Shown here in pieces: positions 10,302 through 11,798 of a DNA stretch of 41,965 nucleotides. Where the stretch lies: positions 1 through 41,965 of the forward strand of contig JAQUSB010000017.1 in NCBI GenBank assembly GCA_028715345.1. Direction: 5' to 3'. Numbering within the stretch: the first letter of the stretch is position 1; each line of letters starts with the position of its first letter. The notes beneath the pieces were generated by a model that saw nothing but the letters and a program-made list of their open reading frames with translations, did not search any database and had not been told where the DNA came from. Position numbers and translations under genes: made by a program. This DNA comes from Candidatus Omnitrophota bacterium. Lineage in GTDB: Bacteria; Omnitrophota; Gorgyraeia; 2-01-FULL-45-10.

Positions 10302-11075
10302 ATGATAGAAATAATAAATTTATGTAAATCTTTCGGCGGCCATAAGGTCCTGGACAATCTGAACCTCTGCATAAATACGGGAGCGACCACCGTGATCATA
10401 GGGCGTTCGGGGTGCGGCAAGAGCGTCCTTTTAAAGCATATAATAGGGCTCATGCGGCCGGACTCCGGGCAGGTCATCATAGACGGTAAAGATGTTACCA
10501 AGATGGACGAGAAAGAGCTGAGTGCTCTGCGGCTGAGGTTCGGCATGCTGTTCCAGGGCGCGGCGCTTTTCGACTCCCTCAATGTTTACGAAAATGTCGG
10601 TTTCAATCTCATAGAGCACACATCCTCGTCCGATGCGGAAATCAGTAAAGCGGTGAAAGAGTCTCTGGCGCTGGTAGGTTTGAAAGGCATAGAAAATAAG
10701 AAGCCTTCCGAGCTTTCCGGCGGTATGAAAAAGAGGGTAGGGCTTGCGCGCGCCATATGCATGAGGCCGCAGATAATGCTCTATGATGAGCCGACGACAG
10801 GCATCGACCCGATAATGGGTGATTCCATAAATGATCTCATAGTCGAGCTGCACAATAAGCTTAAAGTCACCGCCATAGCCGTTACTCACGACATGACGAG
10901 CGCGTACAAGATAGCGGACAGGATAGCCATGATGTACAATGGAAAGATAATCGCTAACGGGACGCCGGAAGAAATAAAAAGCACGAAGGATCCGATAGTC
11001 CACCAGTTCATAACGGGCGCCAGCAAGGGCCCAATAACGGAAGGCATAGATTTCGAACATCTTATAAAACAATAA
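10302..11075 (+). CDS. mlaF: MlaF family lipid ABC transporter ATPase
   Basis: A 257-residue ABC ATPase that powers the MlaE permease. Walker A is GRSGCGKS (34-41), the signature LSGGMKKR (138-145), Walker B IMLYDEPTTGIDP (158-170) and the switch histidine lies in AVTHDMTSAYK. The methionine-lysine-lysine-arginine form of the signature and the TTGIDP run are typical of MlaF/Ttg2A rather than nutrient importers. The gene sits between mlaE and mlaD; the 114-bp gap after it holds a tandem hairpin repeat. Confidence 0.93.
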   Translation: MIEIINLCKSFGGHKVLDNLNLCINTGATTVIIGRSGCGKSVLLKHIIGLMRPDSGQVIIDGKDVTKMDEKELSALRLRFGMLFQGAALFDSLNVYENVGFNLIEHTSSSDAEISKAVKESLALVGLKGIENKKPSELSGGMKKRVGLARAICMRPQIMLYDEPTTGIDPIMGDSINDLIVELHNKLKVTAIAVTHDMTSAYKIADRIAMMYNGKIIANGTPEEIKSTKDPIVHQFITGASKGPITEGIDFEHLIKQ

Positions 11076-11182
11076 CTTGGCCTCGGCCGGAGGCCTCAGC
11101 ACTTAGCATACAGGTGACTGGATAAACTTGGCCGATATCAGAGATATCGGCACTTAGCATACAGGTGACTGGATAAACTTGG
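11076..11182 (+). repeat. Tandem 51-bp repeat with two different hairpins ahead of mlaD
   Basis: Two copies of a 33-bp constant block (11099-11131 and 11150-11182) repeat with a 51-bp period. Each block is preceded by a hairpin of different sequence: GGCCTC/GAGGCC (11079-11084 with 11090-11095, 5-base loop) and a perfect GCCGATATC/GATATCGGC (11131-11139 with 11143-11151, loop AGA). The motif AACTTGG comes before each hairpin and a third AACTTGG merges into the mlaD ribosome site at 11181. The constant block also holds CAG-GTGA-CTG, a possible short stem with a GNRA-type loop. No T-run follows, so these are not typical terminators. Sequence and pairing are seen; any function in mlaD expression or mRNA processing is inference. 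Confidence 0.75.
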
Positions 11183-11189
11183 AGGTAGC

Positions 11190-11798
11190 ATGGATAGCGT
11201 AAAGACTTTTGAGTTGAAGGTGGGCGTATTCATAATGATAGGCGTCGCTATTTTATTTTTGATCGTATTTTCGGTAGGGGATGTGAAGTTCACAAAGACG
11301 GGCTACAAGATAAAGGTCTTATTCAACTTTGCTAACGGCATAGGCGGCACTGCCCCGGTCAGGCTTGCGGGGGTAGGCGTAGGGCAGGTCCAGGGGATAA
11401 AGATAGTCCGTGACGCCGAGACCGATACCACCAAAGCCGAGCTGACGGTTTGGATAAATGACAATACGAAGATCGAGAACGACGCCGTAGTTACGATAAA
11501 TACGCTCGGCCTTCTCGGTGAGAAATATCTCGAGATATTTCCGGGTACTCCCGGCAGCCCTGCGCTGCGGCCTAACGATATGCTGATAGGCAAAGATCCG
11601 GTCCCGATGGAGAAATTTACCGAAGACCTGGCGAAGCTTACAGATTCTATCAAGGTGATACTCGAAAAGATCAAGAATGGCGAAGGCACTATAGGAAAAC
11701 TTCTGATGGATCAGGCTGTCTACGATAACCTCGAGGCTTTCACTGCGGATATCAAAAAACATCCGTGGAAACTTCTTGTAAAACCGAGCGGAGATTAG
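11190..11798 (+). CDS. mlaD: MCE-domain lipid-binding protein MlaD
   Basis: 202 residues with an N-terminal membrane anchor (about 10-29, VGVFIMIGVAILFLIVFSVG) and an MCE domain (about 38-120: YKIKVLFNFANGIGGTAPVRLAGVGVGQV, then INTLGLLGEKYLEIFPG). MlaD forms a ring on the periplasmic face of the MlaEF complex and carries phospholipid. The C-terminal part has a helix and a short tail (KNGEGTIGKLLMDQAVYDNL) common in these proteins. Start ATG at 11190 directly follows GGAGGTAGC, here with an unusually short spacing. No mlaA, mlaB or mlaC is present in the window. Confidence 0.92.
   Translation: MDSVKTFELKVGVFIMIGVAILFLIVFSVGDVKFTKTGYKIKVLFNFANGIGGTAPVRLAGVGVGQVQGIKIVRDAETDTTKAELTVWINDNTKIENDAVVTINTLGLLGEKYLEIFPGTPGSPALRPNDMLIGKDPVPMEKFTEDLAKLTDSIKVILEKIKNGEGTIGKLLMDQAVYDNLEAFTADIKKHPWKLLVKPSGD

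Follow-up and report, generated by a model that had tools for sequence, protein, structure and literature searches.

The tandem repeat between mlaF and mlaD in the window, the 41,965-nucleotide stretch of Candidatus Omnitrophota DNA analysed here, very probably consists of two tandem copies of a mobile DNA element that is gene-less, non-autonomous and about 52 nt long. The element inserts in one orientation between the AAG and the GAG of a Shine-Dalgarno (SD) sequence and, less often, after CTTG in -35 boxes. A fuller reading, to which we give slightly better than an even chance, is that this is a minimal mobile DNA targeting the SD itself, whose target and tail have co-evolved so that insertions rebuild the ribosome-binding site (the same CTTG tail also rebuilding a -35 box) and are tolerated before essential genes in very compact genomes, with stems being swapped within tandem arrays whose units are otherwise identical.

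The gap between mlaF and mlaD is occupied by two 51-bp units at a period of 51, and the 33-bp GCACTTAGCATACAGGTGACTGGATAAACTTGG, which starts at 11099 and again at 11150, is the longest sequence that the window repeats exactly. The tandem repeat is absent from the output of Tandem Repeats Finder at the applied threshold. The features of the region are as follows.

10302-11075, plus strand: mlaF, the ABC transporter ATPase upstream of the insertion (open reading frame; Pfam ABC_tran, E 2.4e-36; TAA stop at 11073-11075)
11076-11079, plus strand: CTTG, the left half of the interrupted site, or 5' target flank (the empty G001 site is TAAACCGGAGGTAGGG-ATG)
11080-11130, plus strand: element unit 1, 51 nt (covariance model match 11078-11131, E 7e-13)
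11080-11100, plus strand: hairpin 1 of unit 1, GCCTCGGCCGGAGGCCTCAGC (TC.TC internal-loop type, slight decay)
11101-11130, plus strand: block of unit 1, made up of ACTTA, a weakened hairpin 2 and the tail TGGATAAACTTG
11131-11181, plus strand: element unit 2, 51 nt (covariance model match 11129-11182, E 1e-15)
11131-11151, plus strand: hairpin 1 of unit 2, GCCGATATCAGAGATATCGGC (perfect 9-bp stem type, common to many other loci)
11152-11181, plus strand: block of unit 2, the same sequence as in unit 1
11181-11185, plus strand: SD of mlaD, GGAGG, formed by the element's last G and the host GAGG
11190-11798, plus strand: mlaD, downstream (open reading frame; Pfam MlaD, E 7.9e-17)

In total, the insertion adds 102 nt between the two genes. 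The identical 33-bp blocks and the unlike stem sequences of the two hairpins had been recognised correctly in a preliminary description of this DNA. Its statement that both stems pair fully holds for stem 2, GCCGATATC-AGA-GATATCGGC, which forms a perfect 9 bp, and for the inner part of stem 1, GCCTCGGCC-GGA-GGCCTCAGC, but not for the outer part of the latter, where mismatches lie at the stem base. Similarly, AACTTGG, which was thought to precede each hairpin and to abut the mlaD ribosome site, does stand before unit 2 and against GGAGG, but the sequence upstream of unit 1 is TAACTTGG, which overlaps the mlaF stop codon. Hairpin 2 is decayed in both units, where changes of GCC to GCA and of GGC to GAC weaken the stem. 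The repeat region folds as RNA with a z of -2.9 relative to shuffled sequences, none of 200 shuffles being equally stable, and in the predicted fold the mlaD SD pairs partly with early coding sequence and not with the hairpins.

A search of the window's own genome with a 141-bp region around the repeat returned dispersed relatives, and 20 copies were aligned. In this alignment the unit of about 52 nt is composed of hairpin 1 (a 9-bp stem starting with GCC, in the form GCC-stem-GGC, with a loop of 3-4), the motif ACTTA, hairpin 2 (AGCC...GGCT) and the tail TGAATAAACTTG, with the variants CTTG, CTAG or CAAG; it carries no gene. Most units (93) are 52 nt long, with 11 of 53 and 6 of 51. Hairpin 1 recurs with perfect stems (GATATC, GATGTC, GAGATC, GAGGTC, GAAATC, and GGCGTC) and with stems bearing a TC.TC internal loop (GCCTCGGTC...GACCTCGGC and GCCGCTCGTAGAACTCGCGGC). 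Relics without hairpin 1 or without the tail are also present (e.g., G000:C3:22047). A diverged subfamily, with the block ACCTGGTAGATAGACTYATTTAATTAACTTG and a hairpin 2 that is either weak or lost, is found mostly at -35 sites (L118-L123, L127, and L056).

A covariance model gives 24 strong matches in the own genome, at E values from 1e-19 to 7e-13, so the window repeat is not a product of chance. Copies were also found in ten relatives of the same family (4, 4, 1, 1, 21, 23, 34, 3, 1, and 1 copies), most other genomes of the family having none. Thus the repeat is not unique to the assembly, and a merely local tandem duplication of one hairpin, or an assembly artefact, which the identity of the two blocks over 33 bp might have suggested, is refuted for practical purposes by the dispersed copies and by the same family of repeats in genomes from independent projects. 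Four genomes, namely the own genome and three others of the same Omnitrophota family, are rich in the element (21-34 copies), and the rest hold 0-4. The copy number ranges from 1 to 34 within a single genus; in genus g16, it is high in G021 and G017 and low in G023 and G025, all compared genomes being MAGs or draft assemblies. Among 384 genomes sampled across the phylum, matches at E 1e-4 were confined to the window's family; no genome outside that family gave a convincing match, the named matches all being Candidatus Omnitrophota, and the viral contigs searched gave none.

The position of the element was tabulated from junctions at 88 loci, a few of which (e.g., L101, L129, and L116) were imperfectly parsed, so that the counts are approximate by a few loci. 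At no fewer than 64 of these, the tail leads directly into the SD, with GAG, GGA, or GGG as the next letters. On the 5' side, 42 loci have AAG, and most have AAG, TTG, or TAG. A smaller class lies at -35 boxes, where the insertion point (marked here by a slash) falls in CTTG/CAA or TTG/ACA and a -10-like sequence follows about 17 nt downstream (L043, L041, L114, L127, and L054); altogether, about a quarter of the loci are -35 boxes or other sites not directly in an SD. Wherever a gene follows, the element is oriented in its sense. These genes are unrelated to one another and include gyrA, gyrB, rpsP, rpmE, rpmF, yajC, ribH, nadD, panB, fabZ, htpX, atpE, mlaD, and a PIN-TRAM gene. Insertions made at random and then filtered by selection should favour spacers away from the SD; since this is not so, target choice, and not selection alone, would explain the position. 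The strand bias cannot serve as a test of a lagging-strand mechanism because the element follows the gene strand, and about 90% of the genes in the examined G021 contigs lie on one strand of each replichore.

Orthologous sites without the element show that it is an insertion. An empty site reads AAG/GAG and an occupied one AAG(GCC...AACTTG)GAG, which fixes the insertion point to within an ambiguity of 1-2 nt. Before rpsP, G021 has GAGAAATAG-(52 nt)-GAGG, in the form AAATAG(GCC...AACTAG)GAGG, whereas G017 and G023 are empty with GAGAAATAG/GAGG (AAATAGGAGG). Before rpmF, G021 has AATAAAAAG-(52 nt)-GAGCAAATAAA, and the empty site of G023 is AATAAAAAG/GAGCAAATAAA (AATAAAAAGGAGCAAATAAA). Similar results were obtained for grx, patatin, yajC, gyrB, PIN-TRAM, htpX, lemA, and panB; at the -35 locus L043, the same gene order in G001 is without the element and reads TTCTTG/CAAATTT...TATAAT. 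None of the 15 relatives compared has the element between mlaF and mlaD; in the congeneric G001, TAAACCGGAGGTAGGG stands before the ATG. In the mla operon of G021 the element lies one gene farther downstream, in front of PIN-TRAM, a site that is empty in the window; such different positions in one operon read as a signature of independent insertion. Mobility is deduced here from comparing MAGs, in which copy number and sites differ between close relatives, and the suggestion of a small mobile element, already made in the preliminary description, is borne out by the empty sites. Two of the 16 loci compared are occupied in both G021 and G017. At gyrA, different stems stand at the same SD in two species. 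Concerted evolution of the stems there was considered and set aside, since two shared sites among 16 are compatible with independent insertions into the same target and no special process is needed.

The signals into which the element is inserted are restored by its own end. The tail joined to the host GAGG gives CTTGGAGG or CTAGGAGG, in which GGAG is restored, and in the -35 class the tail restores the TTG motif. The predicted pairing with the anti-SD is similar to that of the empty site in most of nine comparisons, as for mlaD (-10.7 kcal/mol against -10.9 kcal/mol in the empty G001 site), with about 3 lost on insertion in the case of hup. The element can therefore precede essential genes, apparently without silencing them, because its tail rebuilds the ribosome-binding sequence. 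It would be mainly selfish, being tolerated because the landing signal is rebuilt while the leader between genes is lengthened, and it may have gained a role at some loci. About 95% of the contigs examined consists of open reading frames, and if the proposal is confirmed, this would be selfish DNA that uses the only spare space of compact genomes, the genes hit apparently not being killed. Pairs of sites with and without the element offer a natural test of how leader hairpins affect translation.

A cis-regulatory RNA, whether riboswitch-like or a protein-binding leader, that controls the translation of a regulon could also be expected to lie always in the sense of the gene, to abut the SD directly, and to have a covarying structure. 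We regard it as very improbable because the genes concerned, from gyrA, gyrB, rpsP, rpmE, and rpmF to nadD, panB, fabZ, htpX, and mlaD, are unrelated, orthologues in the same genus are without the element, only the two loci mentioned above are occupied in both G021 and G017, and about a quarter of the loci are outside the SD altogether. Rfam, searched at gathering and at relaxed thresholds (to E 5), has no match to the element. The earlier proposal of a regulatory RNA, a processing site, or an insulator peculiar to mlaF-mlaD is likewise unsupported: the unit precedes dozens of unrelated genes, the mla locus of all 15 relatives compared is empty, and copy number varies widely within one genus.

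Covariation in the stems has to be read with care. Among the 20 own-genome copies, five of the nine pairs of hairpin 1 are changed on both sides; over all pairs the figure is 7 of 16, and no shuffle reaches the covariation score. With 96 distinct copies, 11 of 16 pairs are changed on both sides, and the score is reached by none of 500 shuffles. The covariation across copies that had been suggested as a check is thus present, and the earlier view that structure rather than sequence matters stands insofar as stems stay paired while they change; it does not extend to ACTTA, the hairpin-2 stem, and the tail, which are conserved in sequence. Nor is covariation a proof of selection on RNA, because near-perfect palindromes can be re-perfected by templated repair. 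The covariation of hairpin 1 supports the formation of a hairpin in DNA or RNA and would fit either selection for structure or palindrome-templated repair, and strong stem covariation near start codons is by itself no sign of a regulatory RNA. The same argument bears on the idea that units spread by transposition and were then retained for mRNA stability, processing, or translational insulation, for instance to separate the expression of mlaF and mlaD. The maintained stems, the position between co-transcribed genes, and the strong local structure (the z of -2.9) are in its favour, but hairpin 2 is decayed in both window units, templated repair can account for the covariation, and copy number differs strongly within a genus, so that we hold this retention to be unlikely.

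Two or three units are present at 25 of the 88 loci (24 double and one triple), all in direct orientation. Of the five pairs in the own genome, three have the same block after hairpin 1 in both units; blocks are never identical between loci, and hairpin 1 differs in all five pairs. Block identity is also seen in G017 and G006, and not in G021. The two window blocks carry the same private substitutions that weaken hairpin 2, from which it follows that the block was copied locally after its decay, and the two window stems are of different types that each recur elsewhere. Tandem copies probably arise locally. Two routes would fit: either the block was copied locally and the stem replaced, or a second unit was inserted and the block then converted. 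The "swappable stem" of the preliminary description agrees well with tandem pairs of identical blocks and unlike stems, but the exchange itself is explained only in part.

The element would be moved in trans; the most likely form is a folded single strand of DNA, cut by an HUH/Y1-type transposase. Such a single-strand mechanism is the best guess from the anatomy: the ends are not inverted, target duplication is at most 1-2 nt, the hairpins are strand-specific, and the target is short and fixed. No enzyme that mobilises it was found. Y1 (HUH) transposase genes, mostly of the RAYT type, occur in all four element-rich genomes and also in many element-free relatives. The covariance model revealed no adjoining element in the surroundings (about 2 kb) of 20 Y1 genes, the nearest being about 2.5-3 kb away in G006. 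The Y1/RAYT genes were consequently rejected as a linked transposase, since none is flanked by the element and they are present in rich and poor genomes alike. Tyrosine recombinases were discarded as mobilisers, being uninformative because they are found in every genome. A search for IS91-type Y2 transposases (PF04986, 26 genomes) gave no match, with control genomes equally silent, and no reverse transcriptase was found in G000 (94% complete) and G006 (88%), two of the four element-rich genomes. A tail search of 11 genomes, allowing one mismatch, yielded complete short units, relics, and chance matches, and no longer autonomous copy with the same ends. On inspection by eye for IS608-like guide pairing, nothing at the feet of the hairpins convincingly complements AAG or CTTG.

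Some observations concern the RAYT genes themselves. Several (L194, L196, L205, and L208) are flanked by another short repeat, GGGACGTTTTCAAA or CTGTCCC-type, and these repeats are probably the genes' own cognate REP-like ends. An ECF-sigma-like promoter motif, TTTGCAACAATTT...TTTT..CGTCTTATATAG, lies upstream of many Y1/RAYT genes of the family (L194, L195, L196, L205, L207, L208, and L210) and also downstream of three element copies in G006 (L118, L122, and L123).

Membership in the REP/REPIN-RAYT group, in which palindromic repeats are moved by a REP-associated tyrosine transposase, was also considered. Like REP/REPIN sequences (PMC3116915, PMC3733652, and PMC8266576), the element is short, hairpin-bearing, and extragenic, shows compensatory stem changes, varies strongly in family size between close strains, and often forms dimers of unlike stems; its TC.TC internal loops resemble the bulge needed by E. 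coli TnpAREP (PMC8266576), and RAYT-like genes are found in every element-rich genome. In REP/RAYT systems the foot of the hairpin is marked by the tetranucleotide GTAG (or CGTC) (PMC3733652). The element has neither tag, its flank being AAG or CTTG, with AAG, TTG, or TAG at most loci; its doublets are direct and not inverted head-to-head; and it is not adjacent to a Y1 gene, RAYTs being equally present where it is absent. It also differs in location, being found in SD and -35 sites and not chiefly downstream of genes. Because three defining features of REP/RAYT fail, the element is placed apart from that group, among very small non-autonomous mobile elements, and we consider membership unlikely.

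Other small elements share some of its properties. Non-autonomous (PATE-like) derivatives of IS200/IS605 also have subterminal hairpins without terminal inverted repeats, produce essentially no target duplication, and insert 3' of a short fixed sequence, here AAG or CTTG; on the other hand, no relative bearing tnpA/tnpB with the same ends was found, and no guide-to-target pairing like that of IS608 was recognised. The MITEs of DDE insertion sequences are likewise short, gene-less, and dispersed, but the ends of the element, GCC... and ...ACTTG, are not inverted repeats, and there is no target-site duplication of several bases, the two flanks at class-i loci being unlike (AAG against TTG or TAG). 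The SDR5 elements of cyanobacteria are tens of nucleotides long and hairpin-forming, and no mobilising enzyme is known for them. SDR5 is described as inserting between nucleotides 3 and 4 of the HIP1 palindrome (Elhai et al. 2008, via PMC4390886). Going by that description, both are gene-less, insert into a short target at one exact position, and are absent from orthologous sites; the present element differs from SDR5 as there described in its length of about 52 nt with two hairpins, its restriction to Omnitrophota, its target, which is a working SD or -35 box rebuilt by the tail, and its direct tandem arrays.

The element may be a clean system for studying how gene-less elements of about 50 nt move. 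No mobile element described so far is known to us to insert exactly within SD sequences and rebuild them, and none appeared in the open-licence literature searched. A few further observations were made at individual loci. At L115 (G006:C187), an element copy ends right at the 5' end of an apparent tRNA-Gly gene. Upstream of ribH in G025 (L140), a different tandem repeat, TCATTGCGAGCGAATGGAATCGGCCTCGTCCG, is present in several copies. Giant proteins are known in Omnitrophota, and about 60 kb of G021 (L292-L295; G021:C12, approximately 100-165 kb) contains very few, giant open reading frames.
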